Notes: generated by a model not told the origin, from the letters alone. Shown: positions 306-35,246, numbered from the stretch's first letter. The stretch: 38,624 bases of DNA from a virus (IMGVR_UViG_3300007509_000019:1-38624), one strand, 5' to 3'. Made by a program: numbers and translations.

Positions 306-3300
306 ATGTATGATGCACAGAAAGCGCGTTTAGCAACACTTGAGTATTTTAATGGTGATGAATTAGCAACCAATGTTTTTATGACAAAATATTGTTTACG
401 GGACAACAAGGGTCATTTTCTAGAACTGACACCTGCTGATATGCATGCTCGAATGGCACGTGAGTTTTCCAGAATAGAAGATAAATTTGGCACAGATCAA
501 CCGGGACACCTCTCGGAGGAAGAAGTCTATTCTTATTTTGAAAATTTTAAATATATTGTACCGCAGGGCTCCCCCATGATGGGGATCGGCAATAACGAAG
601 TAGCGGTTTCCTTGTCTAATTGCGTCGTGGTGGACAGTCCTGAGGATAACGTATCATCAATCATCGATACCGGCAAGGATCTGGCCAACCTATTTAAGCG
701 TCGCTGCGGCGTAGGACTTGACATCTCACATCTGCGCCCCGAGGGCGCCCCCGTACACAACTCTGCTCGTACTACTACCGGCGCTTGGAGCTTTGCTGAC
801 TTCTATTCATATGTTTGTCGTATGATTGGACAGAACGGTCGCCGTGGAGCTTTGATGATTTCCATGGACATCCGTCATCCCGACATCGAAAAGTTTGTTA
901 CCATGAAACATGATCTCATGAAAGTCACGGGCGCGAATGTGTCTGTTAAAATAAGTGATAGTTTCATGGAGGCGGTGGAAAATAACGAAACGTTTACTTT
1001 ACAGTTTCCAATTGAAGGAGAACCTGAATTTACCCACGAAATCCAAGCTGTGGAATTATGGGAAGAGATTATCAACTCAGCAGCCAAAACAGCAGAGCCC
1101 GGTCTATTAATGTGGGACAATATCACCAAAAATCTGCCGGCTCATGAATATGCTCAATTTAAAACGCTTACGACGAATCCTTGCATTGTGGGCGAGACTC
1201 TTATTGCAGTTGCCGATGGCAGGAATGCTGTAAGTATTCGTCAGTTGGCGGAGGAAGGCAAAGATGTACCGGTTTATTCTACTAATACTAAAACCGGCCA
1301 GGTAGAAATTAAGTTGGGCAGAAATCCACGGAAAACCGGTAGTCATAAGGAGGTGTGGAGACTTACTCTGGACGACGGCTCTTATCTGGACGCAACTCCC
1401 GACCACAAGATTCTCACGAAAGAATTAAAATATATTTCCTTGAAGGCATTGCAAGAAGGACAGTCAGTATTCCCGTTTTATTCTTTCGATAGCAACAAAT
1501 ACCGACAGGTTTGTGGTGTTGGGGCAAAAATGCTCGGCGGAGCACGGAGAAATCGACGACAGTATCGGGTGATACACGAGTTTTATAATGGGATTGTCGA
1601 CGCTAAAAAATATGCCATCCATCACAGCGACTTCGATTGTAAGAACGACAACATTAACAATCTCATTACTATGACTCACGAAGATCACCGCGATCTGCAT
1701 TCTAAGCTAATGATGGGAGAAAATAACCCATATCATCATATGACAGATGAGTGGAAATTCAATTTTGCCTCTCACCCGGGAGAGAAAAATCCTAAATACT
1801 CGGGACATTCAAATGATGAACTGCTTGATTCCGGGCGGCTTCTATTTGAGAAGCATGGCAAGATTACAAAGAAAATGTGGGTTAAATACGCAAAAGAAAA
1901 TGGGTACCCACAACATTTAGGTAATGACTTCCGTTTTGGCACATTCACAAACTTTAAAAATCAAGTTGCCTCCAATCACAAAGTTAAAAGTGTGGAATAC
2001 CTTGGTTACCAAGACGTTTATAATATTACCGTAGATGATAACCATAATTATCATATTATAACGTCACACGAAGATGAGAAGTTTATTAAATCTTCTGGTT
2101 TGTGTATAAAGAATTGCGGAGAAATACCCCTGTCTGCTTACGACAGTTGCCGGTTAATCTCCTTGAATCTCAAGCACTTAGTAAAAAATGCGTTCGAGGA
2201 GAGTGCTGCCTTTGATTTTAATAAACTAAAGGAAATTGCTGCAGTTGGCATGAGATTGTCAGATGATCTAGTTGAGCTTGAACTTGAAAAACTAGAGAAT
2301 ATTAAAAACAAGGCGGACACAGAAGACGAGAGGGTTTTGTGGGGCAAATTATGGCAAGCGGCGCACGACGGTCGACGTACCGGTCTGGGCACGCATGGCT
2401 TGGCTGATGCTATAGCACGTCTTAACCTGAAGTATGATTCTGCTGACGCTATAGCCATGATTGACAAGATCTTTGAAACTATACGAAATGCAGCGTACGA
2501 AGAGAGTGTTTACCTCGCTCAAGAACGCGGCGCTTTCCCTGCCTTTGACTGGTCTCAGGAGAAGCGAAACGCGTATATAAAAAGGCTCCCGAAAAATCTT
2601 TCTGAGAAAATTGAGACTTTTGGACGTCGTAACATCGCTATATTAACAAACGCACCAACGGGATCAGTCTCCATACTGAGCCAGACATCGTCTGGACTAG
2701 AACCGGTATTCCGGAACTCTTATACTCGCCGGCGCAAGCTTTCACACAACGAACAACACTTAGAAGCTGATTTTGTTGATGATATGGGCGATAAGTGGGT
2801 TGAGTATGAGGTATTACACCATAACGTACAGGAATGGCTTCAGATGCAAGAAAACACTGATGTACCTATCCCCGCTCTCTTCGTAGAATCGAACAATATC
2901 GAAGGAATGGCGCGAATTGCTGTACAAGCAGCCATTCAACAACATATAGATCATAGTATTAGTTCGACCATTAACCTACCTAAAGGTACTGCGGCTAGCG
3001 TCGTTGGCGACCTTTACATGGAAGGCTGGCGCCGAGGGCTAAAAGGCTTGACTGTATACGTCGAGGGTTCCCGCTCTGGCGTGCTTGTGACCAATAAGAG
3101 AGAGGATTCCACACAATTTCCACAGCATACAGCACCAAAGCGACCCATCGAGCTGCCCTGCAACATTCATCATGCGACTATTCATGGTAAAAAATGGGTC
3201 ATTATGGTAGGGCTTATGGATGATAAGCCATATGAGGTAATGGGTGGTCTTTCTAATTTAATTGAAATTCCCAAAAACCGCGCTAGCGGGATTTTAGTCA

Positions 3301-3662
3301 AGCATCCCAGAAAGACGATGAATTCGATTTATGATTTGCATATCGGGACAAACGGAGATACGGTGATAGTAAAGGATTTAGTGAGCGCCTTTGACAACCC
3401 AAACCACAGTGCTTTTACCCGCATGATCTCGCTTGGCTTGCGCCATGGAGCTAGTATCCAGTTTACGGTGGAACAGCTTCAGAAAGACCGCGACTCTGAT
3501 ATGTTCAGTTTTGCTAAGTGTGTTGCTAGAGTATTAAAGAATTATATCCCCGACGGACAGACGGCCACTGAAAAGACTTGTACGGAGTGTAATACCGAAG
3601 GACTAATATATGTGGAAGGCTGTATCACTTGCAAGAACTGCGGCTTTGCCAAGTGTGGTTAG
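306..3662 (+). CDS. nrdJ: Adenosylcobalamin-dependent (class II) ribonucleotide reductase, intein-containing
   Basis: This enzyme reduces ribonucleotides to deoxyribonucleotides with a B12-derived radical and supplies dNTPs for phage replication. The precursor is 1118 aa; removing a 311-aa intein (residues 293-603) leaves 807 aa, normal for NrdJ. The N-exteins carry the PQGSPMMGIGN substrate-site region and SLSNC. The spliced junction recreates NPCGEIPLS, whose Cys (residue 604 of the precursor) is the family's thiyl-radical cysteine. Downstream are PTGSVSILSQTSSGLEPVF and a C-terminal zinc ribbon, CTECNTEG...CITCKNCG, with a final redox Cys pair. AAGGAG at 291-296 supports the ATG. No small-subunit or activase gene is visible, as expected for class II. 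Catalysis depends on intein removal. Confidence 0.93.
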   Translation: MYDAQKARLATLEYFNGDELATNVFMTKYCLRDNKGHFLELTPADMHARMAREFSRIEDKFGTDQPGHLSEEEVYSYFENFKYIVPQGSPMMGIGNNEVAVSLSNCVVVDSPEDNVSSIIDTGKDLANLFKRRCGVGLDISHLRPEGAPVHNSARTTTGAWSFADFYSYVCRMIGQNGRRGALMISMDIRHPDIEKFVTMKHDLMKVTGANVSVKISDSFMEAVENNETFTLQFPIEGEPEFTHEIQAVELWEEIINSAAKTAEPGLLMWDNITKNLPAHEYAQFKTLTTNPCIVGETLIAVADGRNAVSIRQLAEEGKDVPVYSTNTKTGQVEIKLGRNPRKTGSHKEVWRLTLDDGSYLDATPDHKILTKELKYISLKALQEGQSVFPFYSFDSNKYRQVCGVGAKMLGGARRNRRQYRVIHEFYNGIVDAKKYAIHHSDFDCKNDNINNLITMTHEDHRDLHSKLMMGENNPYHHMTDEWKFNFASHPGEKNPKYSGHSNDELLDSGRLLFEKHGKITKKMWVKYAKENGYPQHLGNDFRFGTFTNFKNQVASNHKVKSVEYLGYQDVYNITVDDNHNYHIITSHEDEKFIKSSGLCIKNCGEIPLSAYDSCRLISLNLKHLVKNAFEESAAFDFNKLKEIAAVGMRLSDDLVELELEKLENIKNKADTEDERVLWGKLWQAAHDGRRTGLGTHGLADAIARLNLKYDSADAIAMIDKIFETIRNAAYEESVYLAQERGAFPAFDWSQEKRNAYIKRLPKNLSEKIETFGRRNIAILTNAPTGSVSILSQTSSGLEPVFRNSYTRRRKLSHNEQHLEADFVDDMGDKWVEYEVLHHNVQEWLQMQENTDVPIPALFVESNNIEGMARIAVQAAIQQHIDHSISSTINLPKGTAASVVGDLYMEGWRRGLKGLTVYVEGSRSGVLVTNKREDSTQFPQHTAPKRPIELPCNIHHATIHGKKWVIMVGLMDDKPYEVMGGLSNLIEIPKNRASGILVKHPRKTMNSIYDLHIGTNGDTVIVKDLVSAFDNPNHSAFTRMISLGLRHGASIQFTVEQLQKDRDSDMFSFAKCVARVLKNYIPDGQTATEKTCTECNTEGLIYVEGCITCKNCGFAKCG
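1182..2114 (+). other. Intein with HNH homing endonuclease inside nrdJ
   Basis: This in-frame insertion runs from Cys293 (CIVGETLI, block A) to Asn603 (GLCIKN), with Cys604 as the +1 nucleophile. Block B is DGSYLDATPDHKILT (His367), and block F is DVYNITVDDNHNYHI. The centre carries an HNH-like nuclease core: H439/H440, N451-N452 and H461/H465 in 'IHHSDF...NNLITMTHEDHRDLH'. It is followed by GENNP- and GEKNP-type segments resembling NUMOD DNA-binding motifs. The penultimate splicing residue is Lys, not the usual His. Homing into the exact codon of the radical cysteine is typical of inteins sitting in essential active sites. Confidence 0.93.
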
Positions 3663-3674
3663 AAAGGAAAACAA

Positions 3675-3953
3675 ATGACACTAACACCAGTAAATAACTA
3701 CCTCACGGTCCGAACCGTCGAGGACACAGAGACAGAAGAGAGCGGCATCCTGCTACCCCAGGATTACCGCGCAGTAGAAAGCCCATTTGCAGTGGTTGAA
3801 GTAGTCAACTGCTCGGGCGAGAACGGAACCCTTTGGGGCACCGGATTGCAACTTGTTGTGGAAGCACATATGCTCCGCGACATCCAGCACAACGGCGAGA
3901 CCTTCACGGTCATCAAGGAAAACCACGTAATCGGTATTTTATCGGATAGTTAG
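3675..3953 (+). CDS. groES: GroES-like co-chaperonin
   Basis: This 92-aa protein has the co-chaperonin length and fold pattern: PVNNYLTVRTVE at the N-terminus (family: PLhDRVlVkr), an ESGILLPQDYR strand and mobile-loop region, and a C-terminal KENHVIGIL matching the family's 'ese.dILAiv'. It would cap the GroEL-like ring encoded at 17660, or the host GroEL, as gp31 does in T4. It starts 12 nt after nrdJ with an AAGGA ribosome site. The mobile loop is short and divergent, so the preferred partner ring cannot be read from sequence. Confidence 0.82.
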   Translation: MTLTPVNNYLTVRTVEDTETEESGILLPQDYRAVESPFAVVEVVNCSGENGTLWGTGLQLVVEAHMLRDIQHNGETFTVIKENHVIGILSDS

Positions 3954-3981
3954 ACTATTTATAATACCGGGAGATATTGAG

Positions 3982-4374
3982 ATGAGCAAATATTCAAGTT
4001 TTAAAAGCCACCAGTTAATTACAGAGAACTGGCGCAAGTTCTTGGGGGAGGATAAAATCCCTGAAGATTATCCCGGGTGGTACCCTGGCATTGATGATGA
4101 CCTCGCAGCCGATGCGGCGGCACAGTCCGAGCACGACCGCGTCGCCTCGGCGAACAGGGCTCGGATTGAAGCTGAGATTGATGCCGCTGGCGGTGAGGAT
4201 CGTCGCGACGGGTTGCTAGGAATTCAAAGCACGCTGCAGCACTTCGAAAAGAATGCTCCCGATAAGGTTAAGAACTATAAAATTAAGCAGGCGGATGCCA
4301 TCAAGGAGCTGGCAAAGATGAAAGCCGCGGGAGAAGCTGCTTACAACGCTGCGATAGCAGAGTTAGACTCGTAG
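3982..4374 (+). CDS. Small acidic/alanine-rich protein with N-terminal L-x-E motifs, possible internal virion protein
   Basis: This 130-aa protein has no recognised family. The N-terminus, FKSHQLITENWRKFLGED, contains I13-T-E15 and L21-G-E23, which fit the (L/I)-x-E cleavage rule of T4-type prohead proteases. The remainder is charged and helical, with Ala-rich heptad-like stretches (AAGEAAYNAAIAELD). A GGGAGAT ribosome site precedes the ATG. A TATAAT at 3960-3965 could serve as a -10, but it lacks a good -35. Proteins starting the same way lie at 13968, 15776, 21355, 26238 and 29095. An internal or scaffold role is inference. Confidence 0.75.
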   Translation: MSKYSSFKSHQLITENWRKFLGEDKIPEDYPGWYPGIDDDLAADAAAQSEHDRVASANRARIEAEIDAAGGEDRRDGLLGIQSTLQHFEKNAPDKVKNYKIKQADAIKELAKMKAAGEAAYNAAIAELDS

Positions 4375-9440: not shown

Positions 9441-10448
9441 ATGATAGCAGATATAGTAATAGGACTCTCGTATGGTGACGAGGGCAAAGGAAAAGTAACT
9501 CATCATCTTTTGAAGTCAGGTGATTATACTCATTGTCTTCGGTTTAATGGAGGATGCAACGCAGGACACACCATTTATCATAATGGCAAGAAGTTTGTAA
9601 CTCACCACATTCCGGCGGGAGTTTTCTTTGGAATTAAGTCAATCATCGGCGCCGGCTGTGTGGTGAATTTGGAGCAATTTCAGAAAGAAATCAACGAGTT
9701 GGAAGAAAATGGAATTGAGACAACGGGTCTTATCTTTATCGCCCATAACGCTCATGTGATTACAGATAGGCATTTGGCTGAGGATACGCAAGATACAACA
9801 ATTGGCACCACGAAACGTGGCAATGGACCTGCATACCGCGATAAATACGGACGCACCGGACGACGCGCCGGCACCGTTGAGGAGTTGAAGTCGGGTCCTT
9901 ATCTTATTAGTCTGTATGAGGAACTACACAACACGCTCATCGAACCTCGTGTCCTCTGTGAAGGCGCCCAGGGCTTCGGCTTAGATATTGATTGGGGAGA
10001 CTACCCATATGTTACATCGAGCCACTGCACAACCGCCGGCGCGCTTCTAAACGGCATTCCACCCCAAGCTGTGCGACGTGTATACGGAGTTACCAAGGCT
10101 TATGACACGTACGTGGGTGCAAAGGAATTCCACGGTAAAGGTCGCCAATTTGATTTGCTGCAACAACTGGGAAATGAGTACGGAGCAACAACCGGCCGAC
10201 CACGACAATGCAACTGGCTCGATGTACGAATGCTCCGCCGCGCCATCACGATTAACGGTGTTACAGATGTCATTATTAATAAGGTTGACATTTTGCGAGA
10301 GGTTAATAAATGGAACTTGCGATCTTATACGGGAGACAAGATTTATATCCAAACTGGCAATGAACAATCATGGAAACAGTATATTAAAAGGTATCTAGAA
10401 GAGACACACGTAAACGTCGTGTTTTCAGAAAGCCCAGAAAGGATTTAA
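9441..10448 (+). CDS. purA: Adenylosuccinate synthetase, short archaeal-like form
   Basis: The enzyme condenses IMP and aspartate using GTP in AMP synthesis. Motifs are YGDEGKGK (D13), NAGHTIY (H43), GTTKRGNGPAYRDKYGR, EGAQGFGLDIDWGDYPYVTSS and EYGATTGRPRQCNWLDV, ending with INKVDIL. At 335 aa it is ~100 aa shorter than bacterial PurA and like archaeal forms, from which phage PurZ enzymes (2-aminoadenine synthesis) also derive. PurZ proteins I know replace the GDEGKG aspartate; here D13 is kept, favouring PurA chemistry. The usual TRVG arginine is Tyr (TYVGAKEF), a notable change. It lies 2 nt after dnaE and 1 nt before dut, with a CBS-less IMPDH 2 kb on. Confidence 0.92.
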   Translation: MIADIVIGLSYGDEGKGKVTHHLLKSGDYTHCLRFNGGCNAGHTIYHNGKKFVTHHIPAGVFFGIKSIIGAGCVVNLEQFQKEINELEENGIETTGLIFIAHNAHVITDRHLAEDTQDTTIGTTKRGNGPAYRDKYGRTGRRAGTVEELKSGPYLISLYEELHNTLIEPRVLCEGAQGFGLDIDWGDYPYVTSSHCTTAGALLNGIPPQAVRRVYGVTKAYDTYVGAKEFHGKGRQFDLLQQLGNEYGATTGRPRQCNWLDVRMLRRAITINGVTDVIINKVDILREVNKWNLRSYTGDKIYIQTGNEQSWKQYIKRYLEETHVNVVFSESPERI

Positions 10449-10914: not shown

Positions 10915-11478
10915 ATGGCCAGTACTTTACCAAAGTCAAAAGCACGGAACCTCTATTTACCAGAGCAAGTAAATCAAGAGTCGATGAATAAGCTTACAAA
11001 AAGCATTATTGAAATTAATGAAGACGATGCCTATTTGAAAAAGCTGTACAGTATTCATGATATAGAATACGTCCCAAAGCCGATTAATATGTATATTGAT
11101 TCTTACGGCGGCGCAGTTTACCAATGCTTTGGACTTCTAGGAGTGATGGACAAGAGCGAGACCCCTATTCATACAATTGTGACGGGGGCAGCTATGTCCT
11201 GCGGCTTTATGATCCTCATCAGCGGACACAAGCGGTTTGGCTATGAGCACTCAACTCCTCTATATCATCAGGTTTCGACCGGCTTTCATGGGAAGGTCCA
11301 GGATATGGAAGAAAGTCTAGCCGAGACAAAGAGACTCCAGAAGAAGATAGAGGAGTTTACATTGCAGCGCACGAACATTCCGAAAAAGAAGCTACAGCAA
11401 GTTTTGAAGAATAAGATCGACTGGTACATGAGCGCCGAAGAAGCGCTTGGATTGGGTGTCATTGACGGCATTATATGA
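10915..11478 (+). CDS. clpP: ClpP-like serine protease, copy 1
   Basis: This 187-aa S14-type protease has the full triad: S95 in GAAMSCGFMIL, H118 in STPLYHQVSTG and D169 in KIDWYMSAEEALGLGVID. The oxyanion strand appears as YIDSYGGAVYQC. It could form a ClpP-like ring using host unfoldases, or be the head maturation protease, since phage prohead proteases are often S14-like. It starts directly after the dut stop and ends with ATGA overlapping the next gene. A second, divergent ClpP lies at 15135, and the two may form a mixed ring. Confidence 0.9.
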   Translation: MASTLPKSKARNLYLPEQVNQESMNKLTKSIIEINEDDAYLKKLYSIHDIEYVPKPINMYIDSYGGAVYQCFGLLGVMDKSETPIHTIVTGAAMSCGFMILISGHKRFGYEHSTPLYHQVSTGFHGKVQDMEESLAETKRLQKKIEEFTLQRTNIPKKKLQQVLKNKIDWYMSAEEALGLGVIDGII

Positions 11479-11729: not shown

Positions 11730-12340
11730 GAGGGTTTCATGCCGAAATTATCAAAGAGCGTTTTGAAGAAATACTTGAGGATGAAAAGGGATATGATTTT
11801 TTCGACGCTAAAACACCATATAACGTTAATATTATTGGAATTCGAAATATGAATGGTAGGGTAAATCAATTTGATGATATAATCTTGGTAATTTATCGGG
11901 ATGCGTATAAACGCTGGATTGTTGACACGTACCAAGCAACAACTGATCCGGGTCTTTATTGGCTTAAAAACCCGATGAATGTTAATGGTACCGCTATCCT
12001 GTGCCCGGATCAATACCGCAGCGCATATAGGATAGATAAGCATCAGGGAAAGTATGACGCCTTGTGCCAACGTCTCGCGGCTGTTTCAGTTTGGCGCGAT
12101 GCTGATCGAGACTCGGAACACGACATGGGCGCCAATGCAACAGCCACGGGCTATTTCGGTATAAACATCCATAAAGCCGGTCGAAGCTCAACCCGGGTAG
12201 ATAAATGGAGCGCCGGTTGCCAGGTATTCAAAAACGACGGCGATTTCAAAGAGTTTATGAAGACAATGCGTACAGCAGAGTCCCGATTGGGAAACAGCTT
12301 TACCTATACTTTATTAGAAAGTACAGACATTGACAATTAG
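11717..12340 (+). CDS. YkuD-like (L,D-transpeptidase-like) protein, probable cell-wall enzyme
   Basis: The start is placed at ATG 11717, 8 nt after AAGGAG (11703-11708), giving 207 aa. The C-terminal half has GYFGINIHKAG...VDKWSAGCQVF, with H152, S165, G167 and C168. This resembles the HxG...S-x-GC signature of L,D-transpeptidase folds, where Cys is the nucleophile. NVNIIGIRN, ATTDPGLYWLKNPMNVNGTAIL and KHQGKYDAL are conserved in a family I recognise from phages and gut bacteria. There is no signal peptide, so it would need a holin or virion delivery to reach peptidoglycan. Endolysin-like activity is inference. Confidence 0.65.
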   Translation: MSRIRGFHAEIIKERFEEILEDEKGYDFFDAKTPYNVNIIGIRNMNGRVNQFDDIILVIYRDAYKRWIVDTYQATTDPGLYWLKNPMNVNGTAILCPDQYRSAYRIDKHQGKYDALCQRLAAVSVWRDADRDSEHDMGANATATGYFGINIHKAGRSSTRVDKWSAGCQVFKNDGDFKEFMKTMRTAESRLGNSFTYTLLESTDIDN

Positions 12341-13361
12341 AGAAGCACTATCATATGATGACGTTCTGTTGGCACCTCAGTATTCTGACATTCGAAGCAG
12401 AAAAGAAGTAAGCATTAAAACGGCATTTCGGGGTCCTTATGCAGCAGTATTGTTCGACCTTCCTATAATTGCTAGTCCTATGGACACTATATCCGAAGCA
12501 GAGATGGGAGTGGCGATGTGGGACAATGGCGGACTAGCCGTGATTCATCGTTATAATACAATTTCTGAGCAAGTTCAGATAGTTGATGAGGTAATCGTGG
12601 GTATGCGCGCTAACACCGCTGCAGCAATCGGAGCTTCTGGGGACTACTTAGAGAGGGCAGTCGCACTGTATGGTGCTGGGGCTCGGATTTTATGTATCGA
12701 TGTAGCACACGGACACCACGTTTTAATGAAGGACGCGCTAGCGAAACTGCGAAGCACTTTCGACGACCGAGTTCATATCATGGCTGGCAACGTTGCCACC
12801 TTGGAGGGTTACGATGATTTGGTCGCTTGGGGAGCCGATAGCGTGCGTTGCAATATTGGCGGCGGTTCTATTTGTTCAACTCGGATTCAAACTGGCCATG
12901 GTGTGCCAGGACTTCAAACCATTATTGATTGCGCGCGCACAGATGCTCGGAAAGTTCCCATCATTGCTGACGGTGGAATCCGAAACTCGGGTGATATTGT
13001 TAAAGCTCTTGCAGCTGGGGCTGACTTCGTTATGCTTGGTTCTTTGCTTGCGGGCACTGATGAAACTCCTGGCGATGTAATCAATACCCGCAAGGGTAAA
13101 TTTAAAGCTTATCGAGGTATGGCTAGCGCCGACGCACAAGTAGAGTGGCGTGGCAAAACATCCTCACTTGAAGGAATTGCCACCACAGTCCCATACAGGG
13201 GACCTGTGTCTGGAGTCCTTGATGAATTGCGCCGCGGCATCCGAAGTGGGCTTTCTTATTCTGGCGCGCGCACTATCCAAGAGTTACAAGCCCACGCGCA
13301 ATTTGTGAAACAAACAAGCAGCGGACAACTAGAAAGTTCAACCCATATACTAAAGCGATGA
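12330..13361 (+). CDS. guaB: IMP dehydrogenase/GMP reductase family enzyme without CBS domains
   Basis: This (beta/alpha)8 enzyme probably oxidises IMP to [23 protein letters not shown] marks the true N-terminus, so the start is TTG 12330, overlapping the previous gene by 11 nt. The catalytic loop is [19 protein letters not shown] (Cys in GSIC), followed by [26 protein letters not shown] and a GMAS flap. The C-terminus, [15 protein letters not shown], resembles IMPDH (TxxGxxESHxH) more than GMP reductase. At 343 aa it lacks the two CBS domains of cellular IMPDH and so their allosteric control. With purA it would pull IMP towards both purines. GMP reductase cannot be excluded. Confidence 0.88.
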
Positions 13362-17659: not shown

Positions 17660-19234
17660 GTGACTAATTGCAAATTTGAGTCTCGTGCAGCATTGAGTGC
17701 AAAAGTATTAAAGGGAATCAACACCCTTGCGGATAATGTAGCAGCGACACTGGGACCCAAGGGTCGTAATGTTATTTTGCACGAAAAGGGAAAGACTCCA
17801 TTCATCACTAAGGATGGTGTGACTGTTTCTGCTTTTGTCCACGCTGACGATGAATTTGAGAATGCCGCCATGCAGATTCTAAAGCAAGCAACATCACAGA
17901 CTAACACCATGGCAGGCGATGGCACCACCACCGCAACAGTGTTAGCCAGAGAAATTATCACGAAGGCTCAGAGATACATCACAGCCGGGGCATCCCCCGT
18001 TGAACTCAAGCGCGGCATCGATTCAGCCGTGACGCATCTCGTATCTGAGCTAAAAAACGCTGCAACTCATATCGAAACTTTAGATGATGTGGAGAATATA
18101 GCAACCATCTCAGCGAACAACGACCGGACAGTTGGCAAACTAGTTGCCACCGCAGTCGACAAAGCTGGGAAAGATGGCTCGATTACAATTGAAGAGTCTC
18201 GAACAGTCGAAACCAATTTAGACGTTATTGAGGGATTCCGTCTGGAAGCTGGATATGCTGCTTCGGCTTTTGTAACCGATGAACGAAGAGGCGCAGTACA
18301 TTATGATGCACCACTTCTTCTCGTAACCGACACCAAGATCGACAACGTAGAACAGATTCTACCAGCATTGGAGATTGTTTCTAGAGACGGCCGACCTCTT
18401 ATTATCGTTGCCGAAGATATCGAAGGTCAGGCATTAGCCGCTCTGATTATGAATACGGTCCGCGGTTCACTGAAGATTGCCGCTGTGAAGGCGCCCTTTT
18501 ATGGTACGCGCCGACGCGATATTTTGTCAGACCTGGCACTTTCTACCGGCGCAGAATTTGTTTCGCGGGATTCAAAGATCGGTCTGCGTGATATTAAGCT
18601 GCAGCACTTTGGTCAATGCCGTTCGATTGATATCACCACAGTTGGCACCACCATAGTCGGAGGTAAAGGAAGTTTTGAGGAGATAGACAGCCGCATCGCG
18701 CTCTTGAAATCAGAACTTCAAGCCACAGAAGATATACGAGAATGCACCAAGATTCAGGAGCGTATCACGAAGTTGGCTTCTGGCGTCGCAGTGATAAACG
18801 TTGGCGCGGCAACTGAGGTTGAGATGATTGAGAAGAAGCACAGGATTGAGGACGCACTGGAAGCCGTCAAATCGGCTCAACAAGAGGGTATAGTTCCTGG
18901 AGGTGGGGTGGCACTGATTAGGGCTGCGCAGAGCCTGGGCATAGTCTCAGTGGAGAACGCGGATCAACAGTATGGAGTAGACATTGTTGCAGACGCGACG
19001 TCCGCGCCATTACGCCAAATGGCATTAAACTGCGGATTGTCTCCGGATTTGCTATTAAGCCAGGTGAATGATCTGGAAGACAATTATGGATATGACTTCC
19101 GTAATGATACCGTCGTCAACATGATAAAGAGTGGCATTGTAGACCCGGTAAAAGTAACGCGCGTGGCATTGCAAAACGCGGCGTCGGCAGCTGGTACATT
19201 GATTACAACTTCTCATGCCATTGTAGAAGTGTGA
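17660..19234 (+). CDS. groEL: GroEL-like chaperonin
   Basis: This 524-aa group I chaperonin folds proteins inside an ATP-driven ring. Equatorial ATP-site motifs are ATLGPKGRNV, TKDGVTV (D52) and AGDGTTTATVLA (D87, the same number as in E. coli). EVEMIEKKHRIEDALEA and PGGGVALIRA follow. The Gly-Met tail of bacterial GroEL is absent; it ends SHAIVEV. The start is GTG 17660 with GAGAGG upstream; an ATG at 17658 runs straight into a stop. The GroES partner is encoded 13.7 kb upstream in a different operon. Phage GroELs can act without a co-chaperonin, so dependence is open. Confidence 0.95.
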   Translation: MTNCKFESRAALSAKVLKGINTLADNVAATLGPKGRNVILHEKGKTPFITKDGVTVSAFVHADDEFENAAMQILKQATSQTNTMAGDGTTTATVLAREIITKAQRYITAGASPVELKRGIDSAVTHLVSELKNAATHIETLDDVENIATISANNDRTVGKLVATAVDKAGKDGSITIEESRTVETNLDVIEGFRLEAGYAASAFVTDERRGAVHYDAPLLLVTDTKIDNVEQILPALEIVSRDGRPLIIVAEDIEGQALAALIMNTVRGSLKIAAVKAPFYGTRRRDILSDLALSTGAEFVSRDSKIGLRDIKLQHFGQCRSIDITTVGTTIVGGKGSFEEIDSRIALLKSELQATEDIRECTKIQERITKLASGVAVINVGAATEVEMIEKKHRIEDALEAVKSAQQEGIVPGGGVALIRAAQSLGIVSVENADQQYGVDIVADATSAPLRQMALNCGLSPDLLLSQVNDLEDNYGYDFRNDTVVNMIKSGIVDPVKVTRVALQNAASAAGTLITTSHAIVEV

Positions 19235-32050: not shown

Positions 32051-32064
32051 GAGTATTTTTTCCC

Positions 32065-32092
32065 TTTACAAATGCAAAAGGGATGTTATAAT
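32065..32092 (+). promoter_or_regulatory. Promoter of the ParB-like/methylase/nuclease operon, with embedded inverted repeat
   Basis: TTTACA (32065-32070), 16 bp, and perfect TATAAT (32087-32092). TCCCTTT (32061-32067) and AAAGGGA (32077-32083) form a 7-bp inverted repeat over the -35 and spacer, a position suited to an operator. The leader is ~100 nt, far longer than others here, and includes GGCCA-T-TGGCC (32176-32186). Confidence 0.75.
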
Positions 32093-32129
32093 AAAGATAT
32101 CCGAAGTGGTCAAGGATTATAAAAAGACC

Positions 32130-32219
32130 ATGTTCCAAAAGTCCTCACCTGCTACGGCTACCGAGGCATTACAAAGGCCATTGGCCGACAAGGAGAAATT
32201 ATGGAACTTACTAGTTTAG
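32130..32219 (+). CDS. Possible 29-codon leader ORF overlapping the ParB-like gene start
   Basis: An ATG at 32130 opens 29 codons (starting MFQKSSPATATEAL) and stops at 32217-32219, 18 nt into the ParB-like gene. A ribosome site is weak (AAGGA 13 nt upstream). It could be a leader peptide coupling translation, or merely the open frame of the leader. Confidence 0.3.
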   Translation: MFQKSSPATATEALQRPLADKEKLWNLLV

Positions 32220-33274
32220 AGCAGACGCTCGCCGAAGACGGTTTTGATATGGGCGACCTCATCCGCCCGGGATTTAATGATAAGGGTACTATCGATCTAG
32301 ATGATTTTAACGCAGTACCAAAATCAACATTTAAAGATTGTGTATTTTCACATTATGAGTGGCTCGACTTAGAGACTTTAGACATCGAGTCTGAGGATTT
32401 TTTGAATGTAGGAATCCGCGAAGGCAGCGACTTTGAAGTGCGCTGCGATAGTTTTCGAGTATCTTTCAGGAATGATGGTTATATCATAACCGAAGAGCCC
32501 CCCTGCACCGACACCGATGGTGATATTATTGAGGGGCGTACTCGCTTAACCGCAGCCAAGCGTAATGGCGAGAAGTGGATGCCCGTAGCGGTGTATAGCC
32601 GCGCCGACAAATCCGTTCGGAATACTACAACGAATGGACTTAGGGCGAATATGAAGCGGCGCCCACAGTATGCTGCGACATTCGCTGATTTTGTGGCAGC
32701 AGGAGTTCACCTCATTAACAGCGGGGAACTGGAGAATACTGTGGAAGCTGTAGATGCGTGGCTTCTCAAGGACGTAGACATCAAGAAGTGTTTTGACAAC
32801 AGTATCAATGGAACAATAACGAAGATACGAAACGCTATTATGAAAAGAGCGTCTCAAGACGACTCCCTGATTCTTACGATGGATGCGGCAGCTTGCCACA
32901 AGTGGATTAAGAAAAATCTTGGACTGGACAAGAGTGAGTATGTTCTTGTCAACATGGCTGATAATGAAACCTATTCAGAGCGAGCTTGGAGACATGTCCG
33001 CGACATCATTAAGGACGACCGCGAACCAGCTCAGATTATTTATTACACAACTTCTATCTCGCCCACCGAAGCGCGGACATCCCTGAAGAAGTCCATGAAG
33101 TATTTGGAAGATTTGTATCTTGATTCGTGGGAAGTCGTGAATAGTCAACTACCAGAAGCTATCCAGATTAGTGCAACGAGTTATCGTCCCTATACATTCT
33201 TGGGAGCCATCCCTCAGATCGTTCAGCACCGTTCGTACGGCACTGCACGTTTGGTGAAGGTTGATAAGTACTGA
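32201..33274 (+). CDS. ParB/Srx-like protein, first gene of a methylase/nuclease operon
   Basis: This 357-aa protein has, at 109-132, IIEGRTRLTAAKRNGEKWMPVAVY. This matches the ParB-N/DGQHR-type motif (dGxxRlxAa...g...pv.vy), with E111 and R113/R115 at the active or nucleotide-binding positions. The remainder is helical with no clear ParB helix-turn-helix. CAAGGAG supports the ATG. The stop overlaps the methylase start by 1 nt (TGATG). ParB-like domains bind or hydrolyse CTP/ATP or cut DNA, and DndB-like ones modulate modification. Here it may guide or control the methylase and nuclease. No chromosome-partition partner (ParA) is visible. Confidence 0.75.
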   Translation: MELTSLEQTLAEDGFDMGDLIRPGFNDKGTIDLDDFNAVPKSTFKDCVFSHYEWLDLETLDIESEDFLNVGIREGSDFEVRCDSFRVSFRNDGYIITEEPPCTDTDGDIIEGRTRLTAAKRNGEKWMPVAVYSRADKSVRNTTTNGLRANMKRRPQYAATFADFVAAGVHLINSGELENTVEAVDAWLLKDVDIKKCFDNSINGTITKIRNAIMKRASQDDSLILTMDAAACHKWIKKNLGLDKSEYVLVNMADNETYSERAWRHVRDIIKDDREPAQIIYYTTSISPTEARTSLKKSMKYLEDLYLDSWEVVNSQLPEAIQISATSYRPYTFLGAIPQIVQHRSYGTARLVKVDKY

Positions 33275-34236
33275 TGCCCAAGACACCTTTGCGATATCCA
33301 GGCGGAAAGTTTCGCGCAGTCGAGACAATCATGCCTTACATCCGCAACCTAGATTGTGGGGAGCTTTGCTCCCCCTTTCTGGGGGGCGGTTCAATTGAAT
33401 TGAAGTGTGCAGAAGAGGGGATGACCGTTCATGGTTACGATCTATTTCAGCCACTCGTGTGGTTTTGGGAAGCGCTGCTTTCAAACCCTCAGAAATTGCT
33501 GGACCATATTGAAGGATATCGAGAGAATGTTCGTCACTATACATCGCCAGAGGTTTTTGCAACTGAATGGTCTAAGAAGTGCAGTGGCAAATGTTCGATG
33601 ACTAAAGATTCAAGCGAATATTGCAATAATCATAAGAAGTTGGATATTATCTGGAAGGATAAAATGCTCGGCGCCTCAAAAAAGAATTTTGAAATTGTAC
33701 GAGAGTTAACAAATAGTCGCACCGCTGTCACCGGACAAAATAAGCTTTTCGAAGCTGCAGCCCAATACTATATTGTTAATCGTACGAGTTTCTCGGGCGC
33801 CACCACATCAGGTGGTTGGTCATGGAAGGCCAGTTGGGCACGGCTCACACAAAGTACGCTAGATAATCTTATTAACTTTGAGATAGATAACTTTATAGTG
33901 AAGCGCGCGGACTTCAAGGATGCAATTGTTGCCCACCCTGATGCTGGTCTGTATCTTGATCCCCCTTATTGCCTTAATAAGGAAAAGAAGCCTGCACAAG
34001 GCGACCGAGAAACTCTATACGGTGCTGACGGCGATCATCATGGCGGTTTCGATCATATAGGTCTCAGCAATATCTTAAAGCAGCGTAGTGGATGGGTATT
34101 ATCTTATAATAATTGTGATTATATTAAAAATCTTTACAGTGGATATAAAATCATAGAGGCTGAATGGGCATACGGTATGAAAAATGTTGGTTCCCAAACT
34201 ATGGGTAAGTCATCTGAGCTGTTAATTATAGGGTAA
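33274..34236 (+). CDS. D12-class N6-adenine DNA methyltransferase (Dam type)
   Basis: This 320-aa enzyme methylates adenine in DNA using S-adenosylmethionine. It has PLRYPGGK (5-12), the SAM motif SPFLGGGSIELKC (33-45), VNRTSFSGATTSGGW (168-182) and the catalytic DPPY (229-232). An insert at ~100-120 carries C103, C107, C117 and H120, a possible zinc site not typical of Dam. TGATG and TAATG overlaps couple it to both neighbours. The target sequence cannot be read. It may protect phage DNA from the adjacent nuclease or from host enzymes. Confidence 0.92.
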   Translation: MPKTPLRYPGGKFRAVETIMPYIRNLDCGELCSPFLGGGSIELKCAEEGMTVHGYDLFQPLVWFWEALLSNPQKLLDHIEGYRENVRHYTSPEVFATEWSKKCSGKCSMTKDSSEYCNNHKKLDIIWKDKMLGASKKNFEIVRELTNSRTAVTGQNKLFEAAAQYYIVNRTSFSGATTSGGWSWKASWARLTQSTLDNLINFEIDNFIVKRADFKDAIVAHPDAGLYLDPPYCLNKEKKPAQGDRETLYGADGDHHGGFDHIGLSNILKQRSGWVLSYNNCDYIKNLYSGYKIIEAEWAYGMKNVGSQTMGKSSELLIIG

Positions 34237-35246
34237 TGAAGATGAAAGCGATTGATCCAAAGTTGACCGGCGCAGAGAGATCCGCAGTAATTCTTGCTCA
34301 GCTCCGCGAAGCTGTAGACGTTCCAAAAGACGCGGCTTATAAACAAGGGGCAGAAACCATACACTTCACAAACTTTGGAAGTCTCGAAGATCGTCATATT
34401 ATAATTGAGGCGATGATACGTAGAGGACTAGCATCGAAGGGAAGGACAAAGCGTTATGGGATGTATGACCATGCTGTAACCAACTTTTATATTCTGCGTA
34501 AAAGTGGAAAGAAGAAGTTTATTTCTATTACTCTCAACCATGGCGGTACAACTCCTGCAAAGCACGGACTAGCCGCCGAGAAGGAGGCGGCAGACGCCAT
34601 GACTAAGTTTTTTGCTAGTAATGATTTGAGCACGGAGTATACAGCAGAGGCATCCGGCGGGAATGGACATGGTAAAGATGTAAAAATTAAAAATCCCCAG
34701 ACAGGACACGTGGTGCGCTCCTATGAAATCAAAGCCAGTGATGGTTCGCGTACGGACTATGGACAATGTGTGCTCTCGTACGATTTGCAGACAGGGTGGA
34801 TACAGGAAACCGGGCAAGAAAATGAGGCTCTCAAGTCCGCTTTCGCGATACTTCAGCCCAAGTTAAATGCTGCTGTGCGCCCCGACCAAGCACCAGTAGG
34901 ACCAAGGTTTGACGACAATGGCGCCGCTCTGTTTTGGCATTCCTACATGCCCGATAGAACTAACAGTGTTAGCGGCGATGTAGTAAGCGTAAAAATCCCG
35001 CCCCAACTTATTGAAGACTATTATGCTGCCAAAGGAAATGATTACATCATTGTTGGAGACAACGTTTATTCTTTGGGAGGACCAAAGTTGTCGTCTCTAT
35101 CCTCAGCGATACAGGATGCAACTGCTCTCTTTAGAATCAAATATCATGGTCCCAAATATTCTTATACGCTAGCCTTACGAGCCAACTTCAAGGAAACTTC
35201 ACACACAGACTTTAACAGTGCGATGAAGATAATATATCTAACTTAG
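34236..35246 (+). CDS. PD-(D/E)XK-like nuclease, candidate restriction endonuclease
   Basis: In this 336-aa protein the core fits a PD-(D/E)XK fold: helix GLAAEKEAADAMTKFF (E115/E117), then GKDVKI (D148), a 14-residue gap, YEIKAS (E164, K166) and DYGQCVL (Q177). The N-terminal ~100 residues hold a winged-helix-like FTNFGSLEDRHIIIEAMIRRGLASKGR. The C-terminal part is beta-rich. It is coupled by TAATG to the adenine methylase, the arrangement of type II restriction-modification. A DNA-repair or virion nuclease is the alternative. No overall family is recognised. Confidence 0.7.
   Translation: MKMKAIDPKLTGAERSAVILAQLREAVDVPKDAAYKQGAETIHFTNFGSLEDRHIIIEAMIRRGLASKGRTKRYGMYDHAVTNFYILRKSGKKKFISITLNHGGTTPAKHGLAAEKEAADAMTKFFASNDLSTEYTAEASGGNGHGKDVKIKNPQTGHVVRSYEIKASDGSRTDYGQCVLSYDLQTGWIQETGQENEALKSAFAILQPKLNAAVRPDQAPVGPRFDDNGAALFWHSYMPDRTNSVSGDVVSVKIPPQLIEDYYAAKGNDYIIVGDNVYSLGGPKLSSLSSAIQDATALFRIKYHGPKYSYTLALRANFKETSHTDFNSAMKIIYLT

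Follow-up and report, generated by a model that had tools for sequence, protein, structure and literature searches.

Type II restriction-modification systems with D12 (alpha-class) adenine-N6 methylases of the DpnII/Dam type have a methylase gene adjacent to, and translationally coupled with, the gene for a PD-(D/E)XK nuclease. HhaI, which is partnered by a cytosine methylase, recognizes GCGC. Among viruses, the chloroviruses PBCV-1 and NY-2A encode adjacent methylases and restriction enzymes, and many orphan methylases are present in chloroviruses (PMC7019647); chlorella viruses and giant viruses were named in 2023 as exceptions to restriction enzymes being prokaryotic (PMC10101028). A ParB-like domain tied to an adenine methylase has been described in a Wolbachia prophage, whose methylase is predicted to carry the domain at its N-terminus (PMC3089641).

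The locus analyzed here lies on a 38.6-kb virus fragment from a marine phage (IMGVR_UViG_3300007509_000019:1-38624), the whole of which is referred to as the window, and consists of three genes preceded by a promoter-like site and a conserved leader (Table 1). The second and third genes probably constitute a phage-borne Type II restriction-modification-like module, the first encoding a ParB-like protein that is separable from them and has a promoter and leader RNA of its own. A first-pass annotation had proposed a three-gene operon under one promoter, and the open reading frames are indeed all on the same strand with one-base overlaps at both junctions (TGATG and TAATG), the junction sequences being kept in relatives. 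The promoter-like site ahead of them is the best of 12 found in a consensus scan, with shuffles of the region giving 7.0 +/- 2.6 sites, and relatives have a similar site at the same place. The trio does not behave as the fixed unit that the annotation implied: the complete gene order was seen in the window and otherwise only in two viral contigs that share one sequence (L004/L019 and L005/L021), the ParB-like gene is found mostly with a methylase and without the nuclease, and methylase-nuclease pairs are mostly without the ParB-like gene. On this evidence, the ParB-like gene is separable from the pair.

Table 1. Features of the locus, in window coordinates
Feature	Coordinates	Strand	Basis
Promoter-like site TTTACA-N16-TATAAT, TG before -10	32065..32092	+	Consensus scan, 11 of 12
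Conserved structured leader	32097..32186	+	Covariance model
Ribosome-binding site AAGGAGA	32190..32196	+	Read from sequence
ParB-like gene, 357 aa	32201..33274	+	Weak ParB PHROG match, viral homologues
D12-class adenine-N6 DNA methyltransferase, 320 aa	33274..34236	+	Pfam PF02086, PDB 7m6b, motifs
PD-(D/E)XK nuclease, putative restriction endonuclease, 336 aa	34236..35246	+	Homology, invariant active-site columns

The proposal of a Dam-type methylase is well borne out. The gene 2 product matches the Pfam MethyltransfD12 family at 9.7e-22 (78.4 bits, against a curated cut-off of 22) and the PADLOC Type II methyltransferase profile at 5.6e-44, and its closest solved relative is PDB 7m6b (7e-28), with the DpnII structure also matched. 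Motif I (PFLGGGS, of the form PF.GGGS) and motif IV (DPPY) are conserved in 14 relatives, and judged from its sequence the assignment of gene 2 as a D12-class adenine methyltransferase is solid.

The window nuclease has no family match in Pfam, PHROGs, PADLOC, or NCBIfam, and its family was reached by way of the ParB homologues, which led to a 370-aa gene in L004/L005 and from there to 20 viral contigs. The L005 homologue was the productive query, viral scans with the window nuclease alone or with its mixed alignment having returned nothing; the two proteins align with a Smith-Waterman score of 82, against a mean of 35 (sd 4.8, maximum 52) in 1000 shuffles. Across 21 diverged representatives there are 16 invariant columns, seven of which make up the predicted PD-(D/E)XK site: G111, E115, D148, E164-x-K166, D174, and Q177 in window numbering, including all of the residues singled out in the first-pass annotation. 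A PDB sequence search run with profiles of the nuclease and ParB returned no relevant match. When bacterial and archaeal genomes were scanned with the alignments of the two proteins, no relative of either turned up; each of these scans relied on a pair of short peptide patterns, which makes the result weak evidence that relatives are absent. This is a marine-phage nuclease family absent from the libraries searched.

The window protein is the most diverged member of the family and its own predicted structure failed (pLDDT 36.8), so its fold is transferred by alignment from an AlphaFold model of a short relative's core, built with the family alignment (pLDDT 84.6, pTM 0.78). In that model E27 lies in a helix, D53 beside a strand, and E68/K70 in a strand, the alpha-beta-beta order of the PD-(D/E)XK superfamily. 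The best PDB fold match of the core is R.HhaI (probability 1.00, E 1.9e-3, TM-score 0.39; 209 aligned columns, 12% identity), followed by the archaeal Hjc resolvase and then I-Ssp6803I. Together, the sequence family and the model indicate that the gene 3 product belongs to the PD-(D/E)XK nuclease superfamily. A distant branch of 259-aa proteins, represented by cyanophage P-TIM40 and 59 viral contigs, is followed in most cases by DUF6267 and has no methylase in the stretch examined; since it stands alone in this way, the fold is evidently used elsewhere too.

Several further genes are worth recording. The DUF6267 proteins beside the cyanophage nucleases contain KWDGAPA or KYDGAPA, resembling the KxDG motif of nucleic-acid ligases (L039 5641-6831; L042 3709-4608). 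A second nuclease-like family, P0005/P0009, with the pattern D..[SC]VKM.GPIQLSSAEG, is encoded at L003 5316-6912 and L042 2809-3639; in L003 it follows ParB-methylase genes together with another D12 methylase, and in cyanophage S-RIM50 it lies between mazG and DUF6267, the slot occupied in P-TIM40 by the P0003-type nuclease. At L037 4997-5761 a nuclease gene runs across two frames next to an intact methylase gene, representing either a decaying nuclease or a sequencing error. In the Synechococcus phages S-SCSM2R (L040 2435-3897) and Sf-CH11 (L041 2468-3891) an annotated endonuclease, GIY-YIG in Sf-CH11, overlaps a D12 methylase, and forms another phage restriction-modification-like pair.

The methylase and nuclease genes are constant companions. 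A D12 methylase directly adjoins the MTase-type nuclease in all 20 viral contigs (19 upstream and one downstream), and the junction sequence between the two genes is kept from the window to relatives whose nucleases are 26-31% identical; in L038 the pair is kept with the gene order reversed. Distances among the methylases correlate with those among the nucleases (Mantel r 0.59, p 0.0002, n 11, a p value that ignores the shared ancestry of whole phages). The ParB-like gene follows a different course: L005 and L014 are 84% identical in ParB and 48% in methylase, whereas L005 and L003 are 64% identical in ParB and 81% in methylase. The IQ-TREE phylogenies conflict accordingly, with the L005 ParB grouping with those of L006/L014 (99% bootstrap) and its methylase falling outside a fully supported clade that holds the L006/L014 methylases. 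The alignment of L005 and L014 DNA ends 190 bp into the methylase and resumes at the UvsX-like gene, so that the nuclease behaves, together with the body of the methylase, as a single unit of exchange. In the comparison of L021 and L020, where the flanks are more than 97% identical, the promoter, leader, and ParB gene are swapped for an unrelated 385-aa gene, with the replacement boundary exactly at the methylase start codon. The L003 methylase groups with the nuclease-linked ones, and L003 has a different putative nuclease and a second D12 methylase. The co-variation and joint movement of the two genes support a Type II restriction-modification-like module, as does retention of the D/ExK residues. 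The first-pass annotation, which made this comparison, had looked to loss of those residues, or to occurrence solely as virion proteins apart from a methylase, as evidence to the contrary; within the clade neither is seen, and it is the distant cyanophage branch that lacks a methylase.

Gene order and coupling, active-site conservation, obligate neighborhood, block exchange, leader conservation, and the family-core fold are all features that can be read from the sequences; what the proteins do is suggested by family and architecture. The D12 enzyme would deposit N6-methyladenine at some site in the DNA of the phage itself, and the PD-(D/E)XK enzyme would cut DNA without that mark, the two presumably sharing a recognition site. 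The target would most likely be host DNA, and possibly that of co-infecting phages, and cutting of host DNA could feed a phage equipped with genes for nucleotide synthesis. The phage does encode a ribonucleotide reductase, adenylosuccinate synthetase, an IMP dehydrogenase/GMP reductase-family enzyme, and a dUTPase, which would fit recycling of host DNA. Weighing against a restriction function are the TM-score of only 0.39 to R.HhaI and the poor model of the window nuclease, together with the many ParB-methylase loci that lack the nuclease and the cyanophage branch that lacks the methylase.

We note further that the adenylosuccinate synthetase (PurA-like, with GDEGKGK and a weaker PurZ match) and the IMP dehydrogenase/GMP reductase-family enzyme, at window positions 9441-10448 and 12330-13361, are a possible purine supply or base-modification route. 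The large subunit of the ribonucleotide reductase (306-3662) contains an intein with an HNH endonuclease domain inside, and the window also encodes a GroEL-type chaperonin (17660-19234) and a ClpP-like protease (10915-11478), the latter possibly a head maturation protease.

An alternative that we consider unlikely is that the nuclease serves the phage in recombination, repair, or packaging, as an enzyme of the Holliday-junction or flap type, that the methylase is an orphan shielding phage DNA from host enzymes, and that the two are neighbors through a shared replication/recombination region. A UvsX-like gene is next door in most relatives, as this would predict, but it is also beside ParB-methylase loci that have no nuclease, and therefore belongs to the locus; in the window it is tRNA genes, and no UvsX-like gene, that follow the nuclease. 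The match to Hjc and the position of the cyanophage homologues beside the ligase-like DUF6267, with no methylase in the stretch examined, are likewise what a repair enzyme might show, whereas movement of nuclease and methylase as a block, the reversed order of the pair in L038, and rapid divergence atypical for a core repair enzyme are not.

A more specific version of the restriction-modification module has similarly low probability, namely that the nuclease is packaged in the virion, injected, and degrades host DNA at once. The chlorovirus PBCV-1 packages its restriction enzymes (PMC7019647), and T4 internal proteins use N-terminal signals (PMC12373910) of the sort suggested by the nucleases of several relatives, which begin MKPLMKDWRKFLKE or MKPIVEGWRRYLRE, a capsid-targeting-like N-terminus. 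In these phages the motif is over-represented at protein N-termini, with 8 occurrences in 8,520 residues compared to 2 in 79,576 elsewhere. However, the nucleases of L033 and L038 have a weak motif or none, and that of the window lacks WRxFL, having only QLREAVDVP at the matching place, such that the motif is only a lead. The form ..WRKFL.E is also noted at window 3982-4374 and in L048 and L054, the eight N-terminal instances falling in the first 30 residues, and is possibly a capsid-targeting leader.

Any relationship of the gene 1 product to ParB is a distant one. It has a ParB-type box, CTDTDGD..EGRTRL.AA, at about residues 102-120, and matches a PHROG ParB-like profile weakly at residues 99-137 (0.011 for the window protein, 0.0045 at best in relatives), with no Pfam or PDB match in profile searches. 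Homologues are present in 15 viral loci at 54-57% identity, and remote homologues are found in cyanophages P-SSM3 and RN05-S (hhalign probability 99.9%, E 2e-34, to the pair); one homologue is annotated as ParB/RepB/Spo0J. The earlier description as ParB/DGQHR-like is weakly backed, as to ParB, by these profile matches; there is no DGQHR match, and the suggested link to DndB is not borne out by searches of NCBIfam and PADLOC (no match at E 1). Nothing indicates a partition system, with no ParA in a non-exhaustive set of window open reading frames and no repeated parS sites, GGCCATTGGCC having one exact copy in the window. The slot before the methylase is variable, as L033 demonstrates: at 3400-4134 the gene-1 position encodes a different protein with CxxC pairs (FTCPCCEKE and FVCRTCAHK), perhaps HNH-like. 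In L020/L022 the slot is taken by a 384-385-aa gene that looks ParB-like by eye, for which homology is not claimed, the profile comparison giving 0.6% probability. The ParB-like protein may regulate the coupled methylase by binding DNA or RNA, with control exerted at the leader, where an invariant palindrome directly adjoins the ribosome-binding site.

That leader, of about 90 nt, lies between promoter and ribosome-binding site in all ParB-type loci, and comprises a stem at the 5' end, a hairpin that displays TGCTACGGCTA, and an invariant palindrome, GGCC-N3-GGCC, right in front of the ribosome-binding site. A covariance model built from nine other phages, with the window left out, finds the window leader as its sole match (57.5 bits, E 1.7e-9). 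The TGCTACGGCTA hairpin has nearly fixed geometry in all ten leaders and shows compensatory changes, with stems CCTC/GAGG, CAAGCG/CGCTTG, AAGCAC/GTGCTT, AAAGTGC/GCACTTT, and AAAGTGT/ACACTTT, and RNAalifold identifies four pairs with two-sided changes. The window's 4-bp hairpin is not significant alone (p 0.23), its support coming from the whole covariance model. The core pattern occurs in 14 of 2.9 million viral contigs, in every case directly upstream of this ParB-like gene, and Rfam 15 gives no match (to E 10 for the window, and at the gathering score for eleven related loci). It has one exact copy in the window and is not a repeated parS-like site, and a weak match in L033 (E 0.38), where TGCTACGGCTA is lacking, is attributed to chance. 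These comparisons indicate a previously uncatalogued conserved structured RNA element; because the palindrome does not vary, GGCC-N3-GGCC may be either an RNA hairpin or a DNA operator. It is a considerably more doubtful step to suppose that the leader acts in cis as a new regulatory RNA, either resembling a riboswitch or targeted autogenously by the ParB-like protein or methylase, and that it sets the timing of phage-DNA methylation relative to the release of a restriction nuclease delivered by the virion, with ParB as a nucleotide-dependent switch. If this is true, marine tailed phages would have a restriction-modification weapon that is both regulated and injected.

There is little likelihood that the pair is a selfish, homing-type mobile element, in which a site-specific endonuclease spreads the cassette between phages and the methylase protects its carriers. 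The patchy presence, differing positions (beside UvsX or tRNAs), precise exchange boundaries, and fold matches to I-Ssp6803I are in keeping with mobility, but homing enzymes normally have no dedicated methylase and interrupt their target, and no intron, intein, or target duplication is seen at the cassette; the homing and restriction readings are compatible, since restriction-modification systems are themselves mobile. Least credible of all is a modification-dependent system in which the nuclease cuts methylated DNA and is gated or directed by a ParB-like relative of the GmrSD-type ParB_n/DUF262 regulators. Type IV enzymes do contain ParB_n-type domains (PMC12373910), and a viral nuclease that depends on m6A is known (PMC10101028), but a nuclease attacking the mark made by its own partner would be fatal to the phage, and most methylase-nuclease pairs lack a P0001-type ParB-like gene.

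The restriction-modification-like module invites comparison with several known systems. It shares with those of the DpnII/Dam type the adjacent, coupled methylase and PD-(D/E)XK nuclease, and differs in being phage-borne, in a nuclease family outside the searched libraries, and in the ParB-like gene and structured leader in front; to R.HhaI its likeness is that of the family-core fold. The chlorovirus systems have the same virus-encoded adjacent pair, and virion packaging of the nuclease may be a further likeness, but they belong to viruses of eukaryotic algae. If the interpretation is correct, a methylase-nuclease block circulating among marine phages would offer new restriction enzymes and a route to studying how host DNA is taken over, or rivals are excluded, by these phages, and the leader RNA is a compact, testable regulatory element. 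The resemblance to the Dnd system is limited to a loose motif (DGD..EGRTR), and no phosphorothioation genes were seen in the window. With the Wolbachia prophage methylase the association of a ParB-like domain and an adenine methylase is held in common, whereas here the two are separate genes, with a leader RNA and sometimes a nuclease.
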